In this document: positions 28,220 through 36,072 of the stretch, piece after piece
Layout: the number at the start of each line of letters is the position of its first letter
How positions within the stretch are numbered: the first letter of the stretch is position 1
NCBI RefSeq assembly: GCF_009931615.1
Contig: NZ_CP046620.1
Span: 1,441,501-1,505,500, forward strand
Reading direction: 5' to 3'
DNA from: Algicella marina
GTDB taxonomy: Bacteria > Pseudomonadota > Alphaproteobacteria > Rhodobacterales > Rhodobacteraceae
Length of the DNA stretch: 64,000 nt
Notes under the pieces: model-generated
The model's input: the letters and a program-made list of their open reading frames with translations, nothing else
What the model was told of the DNA's origin: nothing
The model's database searches: none
Made by a program: the position numbers and the translations under genes

Positions 28220-29119
28220 TCAGGCGGCACCCTGCCCGCTAGCCATCATCAAGTCCGCGGTCGCGAAACCGAGGGCGCGGCATATATCGTAGGTCAGATC
28301 GGGTTTGTTGAGCGTGTAGAAATGCAGATGGTCACAGCCTTCGCGCATCAGGATATCGCAATGATCAGTGGCGATGGCCGTTGCAAGTAGCGTTGCGGAT
28401 GCCTCGTTTTCTGCACGACCAAACGCATCGTCCATCCATGTCGGAACGCTCGTACCACATGCGCCGGCAAAGCGTTTCATGCGAGTGAAGTCCTCGACAG
28501 GCAGGATGCCAGGATGGATCGGCACATCAATTCCCGCCGCGACGCACCGATCGCGGAAACGCAGGAAAAGCTCCGTGTCGAAAAAGAACTGGGTGATCGC
28601 CGACGTCGCACCGGCATCCACTTTTGCTTTCAGTTGGTTGATATCGTCATCCGCTGTCCGGGCTTCGGGGTGTGGCTCTGGATATGCTCCGACGGCGACG
28701 TCGTAACCGCGTTCAACCAAGGCACCGACCAGTTCCACTGAACCGGAAAAGCCATCCGGATGCGGTGTGAAGTTGTCGACGCCCTTGGGAGGATCGCCGC
28801 GCAGAGCAACAATTCGGTTCACGCCGATGGCGGAGTATTCGGAAGCCACTTCCAGCGTTTCCTCGCGTGTCGCACCAACGCAGGTGAGATGGCCGGCCAC
28901 ATTCAGATGCGCACGGTCCCTAATGGTCCGGATCGCGGCTTTCGTCCGATCCCGTGTGGTGCCGCCCGCGCCGTATGTCACGGATACGAACTGTGGCTGC
29001 AACGGTGCCAGGCGCTCGACGGACCGCCAGAGGCGCAGCGTTGCCTCCGTCGTTTGCGGCGGAAAGAACTCGAAAGAAAGAGACCGACGCGACGTGTCCG
29101 GCTGTTCAAAAGTAGTCAT
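28220..29119 (-). CDS. metF: 5,10-methylenetetrahydrofolate reductase
   Basis: 299 residues; FAD-dependent reduction of methylene-THF to methyl-THF, giving the methyl group of methionine. TIM-barrel motifs: LSFEFFPPQTTEA, FVSVTYGAGGTTRDRT, GHLTCVGATREE and RIVALRGDPPKG. The later part has QFFFDTELFLRF and GILPVEDFTRMKRF. I use the ATG at 29119 (MTTFEQPDTSR); the ATG six codons upstream is also open. It is divergent from a gene set that includes a second MetF-like protein. Confidence 0.95.
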   Translation of the reverse strand: MTTFEQPDTSRRSLSFEFFPPQTTEATLRLWRSVERLAPLQPQFVSVTYGAGGTTRDRTKAAIRTIRDRAHLNVAGHLTCVGATREETLEVASEYSAIGVNRIVALRGDPPKGVDNFTPHPDGFSGSVELVGALVERGYDVAVGAYPEPHPEARTADDDINQLKAKVDAGATSAITQFFFDTELFLRFRDRCVAAGIDVPIHPGILPVEDFTRMKRFAGACGTSVPTWMDDAFGRAENEASATLLATAIATDHCDILMREGCDHLHFYTLNKPDLTYDICRALGFATADLMMASGQGAA

Positions 29120-29295
29120 TTGGTTCAGTCCTGCCATCTGTGGATCTGGTCGGTGTGTTATACGCTCATTTTCCGACCGTTCAACGGCGTATTGCGACCT
29201 ATTTCCTGTTGACTTGCATGTTTTTCAGCGAGAGGTCTTGCACCAAAGTAGACCGTTGCGAAAGTTCGGCATCCAACGGCGGAGGCGGGAAAGAC

Positions 29296-29604
29296 ATGGC
29301 AGATGTTACCATAGTTTACTGGCGGGATATCCCTGCGCAGGTAATAGTCGGCAAGGGGCGGCGTGGCTCCAAAGTGCAATTGTCGGAGAGGTTCGAGCAG
29401 GCCATAGACAGGTGTGCGATGAAGATTGGTGCATCGGATACGGACGCATATCTGGCTGAGTGGCGCCGTGCGAAGCCCTATGAAGTCGAAGGTGAAGCGC
29501 CAGATGTCGCAAAGGCCGAAGCGGAGCGTCTGGAAGCGACATATGACACGGAAATGATCAAGGCGTTGATCGGTAACGACGGTTGGGCCAAGGGCCCTGA
29601 ATGA
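29296..29604 (+). CDS. PF13769 (virulence factor-named) small protein of the C1 module
   Basis: 102 residues from the ATG at 29296, with GGAGGCGGG upstream. It begins MADVTIVYWRDIPAQVIVGKG and resembles the small family PF13769, carried under the name virulence factor. In alphaproteobacteria this family travels with MetF-like and corrinoid methyltransferase genes, as here, so a role in one-carbon metabolism is more likely than virulence; that is inference from neighbourhood. No signal peptide, membrane helix or known catalytic motif. Its TGA overlaps the next ATG (ATGA). Confidence 0.8.
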   Translation: MADVTIVYWRDIPAQVIVGKGRRGSKVQLSERFEQAIDRCAMKIGASDTDAYLAEWRRAKPYEVEGEAPDVAKAEAERLEATYDTEMIKALIGNDGWAKGPE

Positions 29605-30542
29605 CGTGGAGTGAGCGCATGGCTTCCATTCTGAGTTTCGGCCGCAAGGCCACTGCTGCCCCCCGCCCCCAGTCGGGCGAACTCAGTGCATTCCTGGATG
29701 GGTATTCCATCGAGGTCATGCCGCGTACCGCAGAAAAGATTGACGATTTTCGCGCGATTCTTCCCGCGGGTACACGGGTTTACATTGCCCATATCGACGG
29801 CACCCCAATCGACGAGATGGTGGCGACCGCTGCGCGCCTGACAGAAGAGGGTTTCATCGTAATGCCGCATTTCCCGGCGCGGATTATCGCGGGCAAGGAC
29901 GTGCTGGAGCATTGGATCAAAGCATACAAGGATGTCGGTGTGGAGCAGGCGCTCTTGCTCGCCGGCGGCGTTAACCAGCCTGTGGGCGACTTTTCCGACA
30001 GCATGCAGATGCTGGAAACCGGGCTGTTCGACAAGCACGGCTTCAAGCGGTTGCACGTAGCCGGCCATCCGGAAGGAAACCGGGATATCGACCCGGATGG
30101 AGGTATCGCGCGGGTGTCCGAAGCGCTGCGCTGGAAGAACGACTTCCAGAGCCGGACGGATGCCGAAATGGCTATCGCGACCCAGTTCTGCTTCGAGGCT
30201 GCGCCTGTCATTGAATGGGCAAACCTGTTGAAAGAAGAAGGAATTACACTACCGATCCACATCGGTGTCGCGGGCCCCGCGAAGCTTCAGACGCTGATCA
30301 AGTTCGCTATGGTCTGCGGGGTCGGGCCATCGCTGCGGGTGTTGCAGCGTCGGGCGGCAGATCTTTCGAAACTGATGCTGCCTTTTACGCCAGAGGCGTT
30401 TCTGCGCGAATTGGCAGAGCACAAGGCGCGGACGCCGGATTTCAATATTGAATCCGTGCATGTCTTTCCGCTGGGCGGTATCACCAAGGCGGCGGAATTC
30501 ATGGATGAATACGGCCTATCCGCTGGCCGTGTAGCCGTATAG
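29601..30542 (+). CDS. Second MetF-like methylenetetrahydrofolate reductase family protein
   Basis: 313 residues. A TIM-barrel protein distantly related to MetF: VEQALLLAGGVNQPVGDF, KRLHVAGHPEGNRDID, ATQFCFEAAPVIEWA and PIHIGVAGPAKLQTLIKF correspond to MetF strands. The canonical N-terminal FEFFPP is replaced by YSIEVMPRTAEKIDDF, where the Glu may keep its role. It lies between the PF13769 gene and a corrinoid methyltransferase, so it probably oxidises methyl-THF or methylene-THF in a demethylation route. Direction is inference. Confidence 0.8.
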   Translation: MTWSERMASILSFGRKATAAPRPQSGELSAFLDGYSIEVMPRTAEKIDDFRAILPAGTRVYIAHIDGTPIDEMVATAARLTEEGFIVMPHFPARIIAGKDVLEHWIKAYKDVGVEQALLLAGGVNQPVGDFSDSMQMLETGLFDKHGFKRLHVAGHPEGNRDIDPDGGIARVSEALRWKNDFQSRTDAEMAIATQFCFEAAPVIEWANLLKEEGITLPIHIGVAGPAKLQTLIKFAMVCGVGPSLRVLQRRAADLSKLMLPFTPEAFLRELAEHKARTPDFNIESVHVFPLGGITKAAEFMDEYGLSAGRVAV

Positions 30543-30562: not shown

Positions 30563-31495
30563 ATGACACGAACGATTGTCGAATCCAAATCGAAGACCGC
30601 TATCATCGGCTTCGATCAGCCCTTCTGCGTGATCGGTGAGCGGATCAACCCGACAGGGCGGAAGAAACTGGCGGCGGAACTGGAGGCCGGGGACTTCTCG
30701 ACTGTTGAGAAGGATGCGCTGGAGCAGGTGGCCTGCGGGGCGACAATGCTGGATGTGAATGCCGGAGTCGTCTACAACTCGAACCCCAATCCGAACGAGA
30801 CAGAGCCGCCGCTGATGCGGAAGGTTATTGAGCTTGTCCAAGGGCTTGTGGATGTTCCGCTGTGCATCGACAGCTCGGTTCCCGGAGCGCTGGAAGCGGG
30901 ACTGGAAGTGGCGCAGGGTCGGCCGTTGCTGAACTCCGTTACCGGTGAGGAGGAACGGCTGGAGGCGATTCTGCCGCTGGTGAAGAAATACAACGTGCCA
31001 GTGGTGGCGATTTCCAACGATGATACCGGGATCTCCGAAGACCCGGAGGTGCGGTTTGCCGTGGCCAAGAAGATCGTCGAACGTGCGGCGGATTTCGGAA
31101 TTCCGGCGCATGATATTGTGGTCGATCCGCTGGTGATGCCGGTCGGCGCGATGGCGACGGCGGGGCTACAAGTGTTTGAACTGGTTCGAAAATTGCGCAT
31201 GGAACTGGGTGTGAATACGACCTGTGGCGCATCCAACATCTCGTTCGGGCTGCCGAACCGGCACGGGATCAACGCATCGTTCCTGCCGATGGCGATTGCC
31301 TCGGGGATGACTTCGGCGATCATGAACCCGGTGCGGCCGCAGGAGATGGAGGCGATCCGTGCCGCCAACTTCCTGATGAACAATGACCCGCACGGAGCGC
31401 AATGGATTCGCTCCAACAAGGCGCCTGTTGCCGAAGGCGAGGTCGAGCCGGGCGCGCGGGGGACGCGTGAGGGACGCAGGCGGCGCCGGGGGTAA
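30563..31495 (+). CDS. Methyltetrahydrofolate:corrinoid methyltransferase
   Basis: 310 residues of the pterin-binding (DHPS-like, MeTr/MtgA) family. Motifs: VIGERINPTGRKKLAAELE at the N-terminus, CGATMLDVNAG, LCIDSSVPGALEAGL, RPLLNSVTGEEERL and CGASNISFGLPNRHGINASF (20 residues). These match enzymes that pass a methyl group between a corrinoid protein and THF. The last residues are REGRRRRRG, an arginine tail also seen on the activator at 34042. No corrinoid-binding protein gene is adjacent. A strong terminator follows 90 bases downstream. Confidence 0.9.
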   Translation: MTRTIVESKSKTAIIGFDQPFCVIGERINPTGRKKLAAELEAGDFSTVEKDALEQVACGATMLDVNAGVVYNSNPNPNETEPPLMRKVIELVQGLVDVPLCIDSSVPGALEAGLEVAQGRPLLNSVTGEEERLEAILPLVKKYNVPVVAISNDDTGISEDPEVRFAVAKKIVERAADFGIPAHDIVVDPLVMPVGAMATAGLQVFELVRKLRMELGVNTTCGASNISFGLPNRHGINASFLPMAIASGMTSAIMNPVRPQEMEAIRAANFLMNNDPHGAQWIRSNKAPVAEGEVEPGARGTREGRRRRRG

Positions 31496-31580
31496 GTTCA
31501 GTTCAGGTTTCCTTGTCTGAGGACCTGTAGCTGAAATGTCGAAGCCCTTTATCGCACAACAGGGTTAAGTCGGATTGAAT

Positions 31581-31608
31581 ACGGGGGCCGTTCGGCCCCC
31601 GTTTTCGT
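31581..31608 (+). terminator. Rho-independent terminator of the C1 operon
   Basis: ACGGGGGCC, loop GTTC, GGCCCCCGT: a nine-base-pair perfect stem followed by TTTTCGTTT on the plus strand. It ends the PF13769-metF2-methyltransferase transcript and abuts the convergent rhodanese stop codon. Confidence 0.85.
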
Positions 31609-31609
31609 T

Positions 31610-32488
31610 TCAGCCGCCGTTGGTGACGGCCTTGTCGAGCAGGGTCCAGCCAACCATGCTTTCGGGATAGAGCTTGACGTTGTCGATGCCGGCAAGTTCA
31701 GACGCCACGAACCAGTTGGTGGCCGCCCAGTGCCCGGTGTTGCAGAAACTGACGAGGGGCTTGTCGCCTTCGGCAGCGGCGATATCCCTGATCTCCGTGA
31801 GCTTCGTCTCGGACGGTTCGATGACTGGTGAATCGCCGGGGAACCACGCCGAATGAACAAAGTTGAGAGCACCGGACAGCGTGCCAGCCTTCTCGGCGGC
31901 GTCGTGCTTCTGCCGGCCCTCGAAGAAATCGAGCGGACGGGCATCGAGGAGTACCGCCTCGGACGTGCCAGCGACGACGTCCTCGACGCCCTGTGTCGTC
32001 ATCATCCAGTCGTCGGAGAAGGTGAGATCAATGTCGGACACCTCGGGTGTGACGGCGCCGGTCTCAGGCGCGGCTCCGGTTTCGGCCCAGGCGGTGTAGC
32101 CGCCATTGAGCACCGAGAGATCAGAGAAGCCCACGGACTTCAGCGTCCAGTACACGCGGGCGGCGGCGCCGAAATCGGTGGCATTCTTGCCTTCGTGGAC
32201 AACAATGACCGATTTATCCGTTTCCGCGCCGATGCTTTCAAGCGTTTCTTCAAGTGAGGCGGCATCTGGCACGCGGCCAGGATTCTCGGCCGGGCCACGG
32301 AACTTGCCGTAAGGGGCGTTGACCGCGCCGGGGATGTGGCCGGCAGCAAAATCTTCCGGCGCGCGGATGTCGATGATCAACGCGTCCTGCGGCAGCGCCT
32401 CGTTGGCAGAGGTAAGGGGCGACAGAGCGAAGGCACCGGTCGGCAGGGCCAACAATCCGGCGATGACGGTGGTGAACAGGCGAGGCAT
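31610..32488 (-). CDS. Secreted double-rhodanese sulfurtransferase
   Basis: 292 residues with a signal peptide (LFTTVIAGLLALPTGAFA). The first rhodanese domain (IIDIRAPEDFAAGHIPGAVN) has no catalytic Cys at its active loop (VIVVHEGKN). The second (VLLDARPLDFFEGRQKHD) carries the candidate Cys in LVSFCNTGHWAATNW. This layout is that of thiosulfate/mercaptopyruvate sulfurtransferases, here exported to the periplasm. I take the ATG at 32488, not the longer frame of 118 extra codons that would cover the neighbour. Downstream of the small membrane protein gene on the same strand. Confidence 0.9.
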   Translation of the reverse strand: MPRLFTTVIAGLLALPTGAFALSPLTSANEALPQDALIIDIRAPEDFAAGHIPGAVNAPYGKFRGPAENPGRVPDAASLEETLESIGAETDKSVIVVHEGKNATDFGAAARVYWTLKSVGFSDLSVLNGGYTAWAETGAAPETGAVTPEVSDIDLTFSDDWMMTTQGVEDVVAGTSEAVLLDARPLDFFEGRQKHDAAEKAGTLSGALNFVHSAWFPGDSPVIEPSETKLTEIRDIAAAEGDKPLVSFCNTGHWAATNWFVASELAGIDNVKLYPESMVGWTLLDKAVTNGG

Positions 32489-32547
32489 GGCTTTCTCCCA
32501 TTGTTTGATTGCCCTTGGATATAGGCCCCGCCCCGCCGGTTGCCAAA

Positions 32548-33009
32548 TCAATTGTCGGCACCCTGCCCTGCTGCCAACCACCGGGCTGGCACGGCGAAGG
32601 CGGCCAGAAAGACCAGGTTGGCGGCGACATTGAGGGGTGCGCCGGCGGCGAGGGAGGCAAGGCTGTCGAGCGCGAACCACGGCAGAATGCCGGTGAGGAT
32701 CAGCCGGGCCGTCAGGCGGGGACGGGTATCGGCGAGGTGGCGCACGAGGGCGAGGATCATCAACCCCCAACCGAACATGACACCGCCGGCGATGGCGGCG
32801 AACAAGCGGGTTTCGCGGCCTGCAAGCTCCGGCTCGGCCCACAGGATAAGGCCCACCAGCGGCTGCATCAGAGAACTGGTGGCCGGGTGGGCAGCAAGAG
32901 CGATCAGCAGGCCGAACGCGGTTGTGACCAAGGCGGCGACAGACAAGTAAAACTTAACTGAAGCCAAATATGGGTTTGGTATGGTTTCGGTATGGGTTTG
33001 GTATGGCAT
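32548..33009 (-). CDS. Small membrane protein divergent from XRE regulator
   Basis: 153 residues with four likely membrane helices (KFYLSVAALVTTAFGLLIAL and similar, LFAAIAGGVMFGWGLMILAL, LILTGILPWFALDSLASLA, VAANLVFLAAFAVPARWL). No family recognised with certainty. The first 15 codons (MPYQTHTETIPNPYL) fall in a 22-bp-period direct repeat, so the true start could be later, for example a TTG at codon 15. Upstream of the rhodanese gene and divergent from the XRE gene across the operator array, so it is the best target of that regulator. Confidence 0.7.
   Translation of the reverse strand: MPYQTHTETIPNPYLASVKFYLSVAALVTTAFGLLIALAAHPATSSLMQPLVGLILWAEPELAGRETRLFAAIAGGVMFGWGLMILALVRHLADTRPRLTARLILTGILPWFALDSLASLAAGAPLNVAANLVFLAAFAVPARWLAAGQGADN
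32969..33006. repeat. Two 16-bp direct repeats, period 22
   Basis: TATGGGTTTGGTATGG occurs at 32969-32984 and exactly again at 32991-33006. The period of 22 is not a multiple of three, so the two copies encode different residues of the small membrane protein. This argues that the repeat is a DNA-level element, not a protein repeat. Confidence 0.8.
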
Positions 33010-33051
33010 GACATCTTCCTTTCAGTGCCTGAGCTACAACGAGGAAGAGAT

Positions 33052-33188
33052 CGCGCGAAAAAGGTAATCGAAACAATTACCTGTCAGGTAATGACAACTG
33101 CTACCCGCGACAGAAGCAAAACCATTACCTGCGAGGTAATTGAAAATCTGACGTGCAAGGTAGTGGTACTGATTACCTGAGGCGAAAC
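33052..33188. promoter_or_regulatory. Operator array with 24-bp phasing between membrane-protein and XRE genes
   Basis: Two perfect palindromes, ATTACCTGTCAGGTAAT at 33076-33092 and ATTACCTGCGAGGTAAT at 33124-33140, have centres 48 bp apart. Further arms fall on the same lattice: AGGTAAT at 33062-33068 (centre 33060), AGGTAGT at 33158-33164 (centre 33156) and ATTACCT at 33172-33178 (centre 33180). The missing lattice point at 33108 has only a weak match. The array fills most of the divergent gap and is the likely binding region of the XRE-family protein. Confidence 0.75.
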
Positions 33189-33206
33189 AAGTTTACGGAG
33201 GGCCAC

Positions 33207-33962
33207 ATGGAGGCATTCGGAGACGTGCTGCGGCAGGGCCGCAAGGCCCAGCGGATGAGCCAGATGGCATTGGCGCTGGAGGTCGGTGTTTCGGCGCGGC
33301 ACCTGTCGTTCATAGAGAGCGGCCGGTCGCGGCCGAGCCGGGGGCTGGTATTGCGGCTGGCGGATGTGTTGCGACTGGCGCCGGCGGCGCGCAACCGGGC
33401 ACTGGAGGCGGTGGGGTTCGCGCCGGTGCATCGCGCCCGCAGCCTGACGGAGCCGGAGCTTGCGCCGGTGCTGACGGCGATGCAGCGGATGCTGCGCCGG
33501 CATGACCCTTACCCCGGCGTGGCGCTGGACGCCGAGTGGCGGCTGCTGGCGATGAACGGCGCGGCGCGGCGCGTGTTCGCCGGGCTGGAGGTGGGTGCAT
33601 CGGTGCTGGATGTGCTGGTGACGCAGGGAGCCGGGGCGGCGTTGTTCGAGAACTGGGAGGAGATGGCGGGACATCTGGCGGCGCGGCTGCGGACGGAAAG
33701 CGCGGCCGCAGGCGGGCTGGAGACGCTGGAGGTGGCGGCGCGGCTACTCGATACACAGGCAGCGCCGCGACGTGGCCCCCTGCCCCCGTTCCTGCATTCG
33801 GTGATGCAACTGGGCGACGCGCGGCTGACGCTGCTGTCGACCATCGCGCAGTTTGGCGGCGCCGAGGACCTGACTGTGGCGGATCTGCGGATCGAGCTTT
33901 TCCACCCGGCGGACGAGGCCAGCGCGGTGGTTCTGGAGTGGATGGCGGCCAATCCGGCGTAA
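33207..33962 (+). CDS. XRE-family transcriptional regulator with MmyB-like C-terminal domain
   Basis: 251 residues. The N-terminal helix-turn-helix is clear (LRQGRKAQRMSQMALALEVG then VSARHLSFIESGRSRPSRG). The C-terminal part matches the MmyB-like ligand-binding domain (PYPGVALDAEWRLLAMNGAA and HSVMQLGDARLTLLST), a PAS-like fold. The start is the ATG at 33207 after GGAGG; the frame is open upstream into the operator array. It is divergent from the small membrane protein and probably regulates both itself and that gene. The gene is very GC-rich. Confidence 0.9.
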   Translation: MEAFGDVLRQGRKAQRMSQMALALEVGVSARHLSFIESGRSRPSRGLVLRLADVLRLAPAARNRALEAVGFAPVHRARSLTEPELAPVLTAMQRMLRRHDPYPGVALDAEWRLLAMNGAARRVFAGLEVGASVLDVLVTQGAGAALFENWEEMAGHLAARLRTESAAAGGLETLEVAARLLDTQAAPRRGPLPPFLHSVMQLGDARLTLLSTIAQFGGAEDLTVADLRIELFHPADEASAVVLEWMAANPA

Positions 33963-34041
33963 ACGGGCGGCGGAGAGGCGGATCAGCGCTTTTCAATCCG
34001 GTGGCGGCCTATATGTTCGCTGCAAAGCAAAGGCGACAGGC

Positions 34042-36072
34042 ATGAAAGATCCACTGGTCATCTTCACCCCATCCGGCAAGCGCGGCAATTTCCCCGTGGG
34101 CACGCCGATATTGACGGCAGCACGGCAACTGGGTGTCGACCTCGACAGCGTGTGCGGCGGGCGGGGCATCTGCTCGAAATGCCAGATCACGCCCGCTTAT
34201 GGCGAGTTCTCCAAGCATGGGGTGACGGTGCGTGACGGCGCGTTGTCGGAGTGGAATTCCGTCGAGGAGCGCTACAAGTCTAAACGCGGGCTGACCGAAG
34301 GGCGCAGGCTGGGCTGTCAGGCGACGGTGCAGGGTGACGTGGTGATCGACGTGCCGCCGGAAAGCCAGGTGCACAAGCAGGTGGTGAGAAAGCGCGCGGA
34401 GGCGCGGGAGATCGTCATGGATCCGGCGACGCGACTTTATTACGTCGAGGTCGAGGAACCGGACATGCACGCGCCATCGGGCGACCTGGAGCGGCTGGTG
34501 AAGGCGCTGTCCGAACAGTGGGGGCTGGTGCATGTGGAGGGCGACCTGCGCACCCTGCAGATGCTGCAACCGGCTTTGCGCAAGGGCGCGTGGAAGGTGA
34601 CCTGCGCTGTCTATCACGGCGACGGGCTGGGGCCTGCACGGATCGTGCAGGTTTGGCCGGGGTATTACGAGGGGACGATCTACGGACTGGCGGTCGACCT
34701 TGGCTCGACCACCATTGCCGGCCATCTGTGCGACCTGCAGACGGGGGCGGTGCTGGCGTCCTCCGGTCTGATGAACCCGCAGATCCGGTTCGGCGAGGAC
34801 CTGATGAGCCGGGTGAGCTATTCGATGATGAACCCCGGCGGCCACAAGGAGATGACGCGGGTGGTGCGGGATGCGCTGAACGCGTTGGTGAGCCAGATCG
34901 CAGCGGAGGCGCGGATCGAACCCGCGCTGATTCTGGAGGCGGTGTTCGTGGCCAACCCGGTGATGCATCATCTGCTGCTGGGGATCGATGCCGTGGAGCT
35001 TGGACAGGCGCCGTTCGCGCTGGCTACATCCGGGGCGCTGACGTTGTGGGCACGGGAGCTGGACCTGGACATGCACCCGGACGCACGGATCTACATTCTC
35101 CCCTGCATTGCCGGCCATGTGGGGGCGGATGCGGCGGCGGTGGCGCTGTCGGAGGCGCCGAACCTGTCGGACGACCTGGTGCTGATCGTCGACGTGGGAA
35201 CGAATGCGGAGATTCTGCTGGGCAACCGCGACAAGGTGTTGGCCTGTTCCTCGCCCACCGGGCCGGCGTTCGAGGGGGCGCAGATCTCCTCCGGCCAGCG
35301 GGCGGCGCCGGGGGCAATCGAGCGCGTCGAGATCGACCCGGAGAGCAAGGAGCCGCGGTTCCGGGTGATCGGCTGCGAAATCTGGTCCGACGAACCGGGC
35401 TTCACCGAGGCGATCGGGGCGCAGGGGATTACCGGCATCTGCGGGTCCGGCATCATCGAGGCAATCGCCGAGATGCGGATGGCGGGACTGGTTGATGGTG
35501 GCGGGCTGATCGGCTCCGCCGCACAGACGGGCACGACGCGGATGGTGGAGGATGGACGCACGCATTCCTACCTGCTGCATGACGGTAGCGCGAAGGGCGG
35601 GCCGCGTATCCTGGTGACACAGGGCGACGTGCGGGCAATCCAGTTGGCGAAATCGGCGCTCTATGCGGGGGCGCGACTGCTGATGGACCAGCTGGGCGTC
35701 GACGCCGTTGACCGGGTGGTGCTGGCGGGTGCCTTCGGGGCGCATATCAGCCCCAAGCACGCGATGGTGCTGGGGATGATTCCGGACTGTCCCGTCGAGA
35801 AGGTGACGAGTGCCGGCAATGCGGCAGGGACGGGTGCGCGGATCGCGCTGCTGAACTCGGCGGCGCGGCGGGAGATCGAGGGCACGGTCGGGCGGATCCA
35901 GAAGGTGGAGACGGCGGTCGAGCCGCGGTTCCAGGAGCATTTCGTAGCCGCCAACCACATTCCCCACAAGACGGCGCCGTTCGACCTGCTGCGGGCGGCG
36001 GTGCCGCTTCCGGAGCCGAGCTTCAACACCGGCGGCGAGGATGGCGGGCGGCGGCGACGGCGGCGGGGCTGA
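34042..36072 (+). CDS. RACo-like corrinoid activation protein (2Fe-2S ferredoxin + ASKHA ATPase, DUF4445)
   Basis: 676 residues. The N-terminal ferredoxin domain has VGTPILTAARQLGVDLDSV and CGGRGICSKCQITPAYG with a later Cys in RLGCQATV. The main domain has the ASKHA phosphate loops: AVDLGSTTIAGHLCDLQTG, LIVDVGTNAEILLGN, and CGSGIIEAIAEM near the C-terminus. Proteins of this type use ATP to drive reduction of inactive Co(II) corrinoid proteins to Co(I). The tail is GGRRRRRRG, like the methyltransferase at 30563. Its place in the C1 region fits re-activation of a corrinoid protein encoded elsewhere. Confidence 0.9.
   Translation: MKDPLVIFTPSGKRGNFPVGTPILTAARQLGVDLDSVCGGRGICSKCQITPAYGEFSKHGVTVRDGALSEWNSVEERYKSKRGLTEGRRLGCQATVQGDVVIDVPPESQVHKQVVRKRAEAREIVMDPATRLYYVEVEEPDMHAPSGDLERLVKALSEQWGLVHVEGDLRTLQMLQPALRKGAWKVTCAVYHGDGLGPARIVQVWPGYYEGTIYGLAVDLGSTTIAGHLCDLQTGAVLASSGLMNPQIRFGEDLMSRVSYSMMNPGGHKEMTRVVRDALNALVSQIAAEARIEPALILEAVFVANPVMHHLLLGIDAVELGQAPFALATSGALTLWARELDLDMHPDARIYILPCIAGHVGADAAAVALSEAPNLSDDLVLIVDVGTNAEILLGNRDKVLACSSPTGPAFEGAQISSGQRAAPGAIERVEIDPESKEPRFRVIGCEIWSDEPGFTEAIGAQGITGICGSGIIEAIAEMRMAGLVDGGGLIGSAAQTGTTRMVEDGRTHSYLLHDGSAKGGPRILVTQGDVRAIQLAKSALYAGARLLMDQLGVDAVDRVVLAGAFGAHISPKHAMVLGMIPDCPVEKVTSAGNAAGTGARIALLNSAARREIEGTVGRIQKVETAVEPRFQEHFVAANHIPHKTAPFDLLRAAVPLPEPSFNTGGEDGGRRRRRRG

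Follow-up and report, generated by a model that had tools for sequence, protein, structure and literature searches.

Arginine tails shared by unrelated proteins of the split methionine synthase/glycine betaine demethylase MtgBCDE are probably charge-based docking tags for its acidic corrinoid hub, MtgC, and would replace the covalent linkers of the one-chain methionine synthase MetH. Here, we report these tails from Algicella marina (Rhodobacteraceae), in which a 64,000-nucleotide stretch (the window; RefSeq assembly GCF_009931615.1, contig NZ_CP046620.1, positions 1,441,501 to 1,505,500, forward strand) encodes two of the tailed proteins, the pterin-binding module MtgD and the RamA/RACo-like B12 reactivase (RACo) of this system.

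In Phaeobacter inhibens, methionine synthase consists of separate homocysteine, pterin, and B12 proteins, depends on a RamA-like DUF4445 protein for its reactivation, and requires a DUF1638 protein, whose distribution among alphaproteobacteria follows that of the RamA-like protein (Price et al. 2018, PMC5764234). The names used here follow Ruegeria pomeroyi, in which MtgC is the B12 hub, MtgD the pterin, MtgE the homocysteine, and MtgB the glycine betaine protein; MtgC and MtgD are also used in glycine betaine demethylation, and MtgBCDE was reported to be widespread in the ocean, with strong expression there (Mausz et al. 2025, PMC12478193). Mutants of the homologues in P. inhibens and R. pomeroyi need methionine or fail on glycine betaine (PMC5764234, PMC12478193). 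The same protein set is present in A. marina. MtgD (310 amino acids [aa]; by role the homologue of PGA1_c16040/MtgD) carries PF00809 without any other MetH domain. The PF02574 homocysteine module, MtgE (G000:C1:1284329-1285333), adjoins the PF02607 B12 protein, MtgC (1283529-1284227), both on the minus strand at ~1.284 Mb of the same contig, ~0.19 Mb from mtgD and the RACo gene. MtgB is represented by two PF06253 matches (MttB family), the RamA-like (DUF4445/RACo) reactivase and DUF1638 are both present, and the MetH activation domain PF02965 was not found in the genome. The DUF1638 protein lies near mtgE/mtgC (G000:C1:1282111-1282584; L049); it is without an arginine tail, unlike the four proteins that have to reach the corrinoid. 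Other candidate identities were rejected: AcsV, the reactivase of the acetogenic CFeSP (NF040756; 395 bits versus a curated cutoff of 800), the CODH/ACS methyltransferase AcsE (NF040758; 137 bits versus 370), and full-length MetH (TIGR02082; 126.8 bits versus 1010.85, pterin domain only). A sequence-only reading of the window had labeled MtgD a corrinoid methyltransferase; we correct this identity to the pterin-binding part of the split synthase.

Translation confirmed the nearly identical ends which that reading had noticed, EGRRRRRG on the methyltransferase and GGRRRRRRG on the ASKHA activator, and domain ranges place both outside the family cores, as it had stated (Pterin_bind, residues 25 to 254 of 310 in MtgD; RACo_C_ter, residues 379 to 647 of 676 in RACo). 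Matches of the two proteins to solved MeTr and RACo chains likewise end before the tails. The MtgD tail is predicted to be disordered: in an AlphaFold2 model of MtgD alone, residues 291 to 310 are coil with a predicted local distance difference test score (pLDDT) of 45 to 48, against ~80 to 98 at the end of the core. When the whole genome (3.99 Mb) was searched for four arginine codons followed by glycine and a stop codon, 73 matches were returned (90 for a control pattern), of which only three end long, genuine open reading frames (ORFs), namely, those of MtgE (...PVPVRQRRRRRG), MtgD, and RACo; this count covers RRRRG-stop ends, one type of arginine-rich terminus. The remaining matches end ORFs of at most 132 aa that are noncoding in appearance.

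Arginine-rich ends on further proteins of the pathway, which the sequence-only reading had mentioned, were found on MtgE (C terminus) and on MtgB (N terminus). Both A. marina MtgB copies start with an arginine-rich segment, one divergent in form, and a segment of this kind (RRxRGGGGAARRAER) opens 30/30 MtgB proteins of Rhodobacteraceae. The alignment of MtgB with 9yce, a glycine betaine methyltransferase of solved structure, begins only at query residue 41, and 9yce seems to lack the N-terminal extension; the alignment with 4yyc, a putative trimethylamine methyltransferase that is also solved, includes the arginine-rich segment. No arginine tail was found on MtgC, the C termini of MtgB, DUF1638, the two MetF proteins, or MetH, and the tails are restricted to proteins for which contact with the corrinoid is a necessity.

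Conservation was surveyed in 91 Rhodobacteraceae genomes of 51 genera, with an arginine-rich end defined as at least 4 arginines in the last 12 residues. Such ends are present on 86/86 MtgD, 67/68 RACo, and 85/88 MtgE proteins, and in the sole RACo exception (G050) the arginine run sits slightly inside an extended end. At the main positions of the tail, arginine is found in 73 to 97% of MtgD and RACo sequences. The tail sequence itself varies (RRGRRR, GRRRRRR, RRGGRRR), and the Gly/Asp-rich linker before it is of variable length and low identity. Counted as at least 5 arginines in the last 20 residues, the tails were retained in other alphaproteobacteria at identities down to 50% (35/36 MtgD, 36/40 RACo), and MtgE from other families has a basic end in 27/27 cases. 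Among 80 further named proteobacterial loci (including Halomonas, SAR92-type HTCC2207, SUP05, Hydrogenophaga, and Comamonas), 77/77 RACo and 65/67 MtgD proteins have the tail, which is present in alpha-, beta-, and gammaproteobacteria. The homologue survey that the sequence-only reading had named beforehand as its test therefore found the tails in close and distant homologues alike. In one genome (G087), an additional MtgD ends in a variant basic tail (ESRRRSRRARAGSAA) and is encoded ~7 kb away from an additional, 42% identical corrinoid protein (G087:C5:235679-236452 and 243283-243870).

Slippage or mutational bias in GC-rich DNA could also generate arginine runs, which disordered ends would tolerate; tails in GC-rich genomes do use CGN codons heavily, and in a few members the tail has been lost or overrun. 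As a full explanation, this compositional artifact is already refuted, and we assign it next to no probability. The tails are near-universal in three unrelated folds. Arginine-rich ends are far rarer in the background, in which at least 5 arginines in the last 20 residues were counted in 67/633 long ORFs (10.6%, an overestimate that includes false frames of GC-rich DNA), against 70/71 MtgD and 91/95 RACo proteins of the same loci. Spearman correlations between tail strength and GC content were inconsistent, both at family level (−0.38, −0.34, and +0.24) and at class level (+0.10 and +0.37), and a genome of 33% GC keeps both tails, written with AGA, AGG, CGT, and CGC codons. A GC-driven origin was rejected on these two results, and free variation of the tails with GC content, on which the sequence-only reading would have been abandoned, was not what we observed. 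Recent copying of the tail at the DNA level was rejected because the tail codon strings of MtgD and RACo differ and many arginine codons are in use. An operon-level explanation was rejected because other genes lie between mtgD and the RACo gene and mtgE/mtgC are ~0.19 Mb away.

The tail is lost together with the hub. Six of the 91 Rhodobacteraceae genomes are without MtgC, MtgD, and RACo, and a MetH with PF02965 is present in 6/6; MttB proteins are also missing in 5 of these 6. The three tail-less MtgE proteins (of 88) all belong to genomes with MetH and without MtgC, MtgD, or RACo (G022, G054, and G024). In G022 and G054, an MtgE 55 to 57% identical is retained, ends in DERLTIGRRN or GAFASARH without a tail, and adjoins a MetH frame of 924 to 936 aa, too short for all modules; the homologue in G024 is more distant (43% identical) and also tail-less. 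As a side observation, MetH frames of ~910 to 960 aa, apparently without the homocysteine module, were seen in several Rhodobacteraceae (G022:C55, G024:C57, G054:C1, G048:C21, G016:C4, G037:C1, and G078:C25), and in G022 and G054 the pairing of a short MetH with a separate tail-less MtgE-like protein makes a two-piece synthase of another kind. A MetH with activation domain occurs in 16/91 Rhodobacteraceae, and because 10 of the 16 also retain the full split system, the two can coexist.

The common partner of the tailed proteins has an acidic N terminus. Residues 1 to ~25 of MtgC carry a net charge of −8 to −13 and a mean of 0.1 Lys/Arg (81 distinct sequences), and the acidic start was seen in every MtgC whose start fell inside the retrieved DNA, in alpha- and gammaproteobacteria. 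Matches of MtgC to solved corrinoid proteins mostly start at residues 16 to 26 (at 12 for MtaC), so most of the acidic stretch lies outside the shared fold; in a model of MtgC folded singly, residues 1 to 4 are disordered and an acidic helix starts at residue 14. The client cores are themselves acidic (isoelectric point [pI], 4.8 to 5.7), as are MtgC (pI 4.4) and DUF1638 (pI 5.4 overall), and MtgC outside its N terminus has a net charge of −11. Because client cores and MtgC are both acidic, the tails are the main basic element, and without them the encounters would be of acid with acid.

From these patterns we infer a mechanism. MtgD, MtgE, and RACo, at their C termini, and MtgB, at its N terminus, each carry a flexible linker with four to seven arginines. 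As separate modules, they each have to reach the same corrinoid protein, MtgC; the tails may bind its acidic N-terminal segment weakly and exchangeably, so that docking would raise the local concentration of each partner while the partners take turns on the cobalamin. Such a weak electrostatic tether would stand in for the covalent linkers of MetH. It is an even question whether this amounts to a charge-coded, interchangeable docking in which four unrelated folds evolved the same short arginine tail (three C-terminal, one N-terminal) for a single acidic handle of the corrinoid protein they share, giving a multidomain enzyme of freely exchanging parts and one hub for methionine synthesis and osmolyte demethylation. 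The sequence-only reading had proposed a common docking or assembly tag, or binding to an acidic partner such as the corrinoid protein; the tails are indeed shared and conserved and the MtgC N terminus is acidic, and physical binding to MtgC is the inferred part.

Several points weigh against docking on MtgC. Tails are extended or missing in a few homologues outside the family (RACo of G105, G137, G163, and G173; MtgD of G253/L400 and L465). In genomes with the system, the tail and the acidic segment are both nearly constant, and finer covariation therefore cannot decide whether they are coupled. The acidity of the MtgC segment, which is partly a predicted ordered helix, may have another role. 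RNA, DNA, polyphosphate, and membranes are further ligands of arginine tails. It is conceivable, though we think it unlikely, that instead of docking to MtgC the tails share a nonprotein polyanion (RNA, polyphosphate, DNA, or membrane) as their ligand, by which the methyl-transfer enzymes would be brought together at a single site or in a condensate. Arginine-rich, glycine-flanked ends are generic polyanion binders, and the variable tail sequence makes the code look like charge and not a precise motif; yet the two MetF proteins and DUF1638, which belong to the pathway without touching the corrinoid, have no tail, MtgC itself has none either, MtgE persists but loses its tail where MtgC is absent, and the MtgC N terminus is strongly acidic. 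Slightly less likely still is docking on another acidic partner. DUF1638 could act as a scaffold, a ferredoxin could be bound as the electron donor, or the tails could use the acidic surface of MtgC in general, which fits the charge that MtgC carries beyond its N terminus. DUF1638 tracks the RamA-like protein (PMC5764234) and is acidic overall, but its acidity is not above that of the clients, and a ferredoxin would be needed by RACo only, yet MtgE, MtgD, and MtgB are also tailed.

Docking of the tails on MtgC would have a precedent in MtaB-MtaC, in which an extra N-terminal domain of the corrinoid protein MtaC stabilizes the complex (PMC9842639). In MtaB-MtaC and RACo-CoFeSP (PDB 2i2x and 4c1n), several partners recognize one corrinoid protein, but docking proceeds via folded surfaces. 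MetH has the same four chemical modules around one cobalamin, but its homocysteine, pterin, B12, and reactivation modules are on one chain with covalent linkers, and its C terminus has no arginine tail. Terminal docking peptides, such as the docking domains of polyketide synthases, are short terminal segments that guide encounters of separate modules; such peptides are mostly folded or coiled motifs with specificity for one partner each, whereas here one charge-based tail would be common to four clients of one hub.

Coordinates are given in Table 1. A rhodanese-like gene and an XRE-type regulator intervene between mtgD and the RACo gene, so the two are not one operon here; the regulator is a possible regulator of the reactivase gene. 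The only useful result of a scan for promoters and terminators was one terminator-like site. The MetF-like protein upstream of mtgD has no Pfam family at an E value of 0.001, is a divergent MetF paralogue, and is preceded by the PF13769 protein.

TABLE 1 Features of the window, in window positions
Feature	Position	Strand	Evidence
MetF (5,10-methylene-H4F reductase), no tail	28220..29137	-	PF02219 2.3e-82; TIGR00676 314 bits
PF13769 "Virulence_fact" small protein upstream of mtgD, no tail	29293..29604	+	Pfam match; protein end
MetF-like 313-aa protein upstream of mtgD, no tail (end ...GLSAGRVAV)	29601..30542	+	TIGR00676 weak, 2.5e-4
mtgD, pterin-binding (methyl-H4F:corrinoid) methyltransferase module of split methionine synthase	30563..31495	+	PF00809 1e-27; NCBIfam NF005719 413.8 bits (cutoff 259)
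MtgD linker + Arg tail, residues 287-310, predicted disordered	31421..31492	+	AlphaFold2
MtgD C-terminal tail EGRRRRRG (protein end ...GTREGRRRRRG, stop)	31469..31492	+	Direct translation
Terminator-like site after mtgD	31581-31602		
XRE-type regulator with MmyB-like ligand-binding domain, directly upstream of reactivase gene	33153-33962	+	
RACo/RamA-like corrinoid reductive activase (ferredoxin + ASKHA, DUF4445-type)	34042..36072	+	PF14574, PF17651, PF17650, Fer2
RACo linker + Arg tail, residues 644-676	35971..36069	+	Beyond match to solved RACo 3zyy, ending at query residue 643
RACo C-terminal tail GGRRRRRRG (protein end ...GEDGGRRRRRRG, stop)	36043..36069	+	Direct translation

The enzyme system is already known; what is added here is that its proteins have charged ends in common and that the N terminus of MtgC is acidic. 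The physical basis for assembly is not given in PMC5764234 or PMC12478193, the words arginine and tail do not occur in the latter (Mausz et al. 2025), and no mention of arginine tails on corrinoid or methionine synthase proteins was found in the open-license papers searched, with an earlier mention elsewhere being possible. The tails would be a simple answer to how the separate parts of MtgBCDE find each other. If this is true, they would serve as a sequence marker by which more enzymes could be assigned to MtgC as clients, among them MttB-family demethylases whose substrate is unknown, and would exemplify how covalent domain fusion can be replaced by terminal tags that arose convergently.

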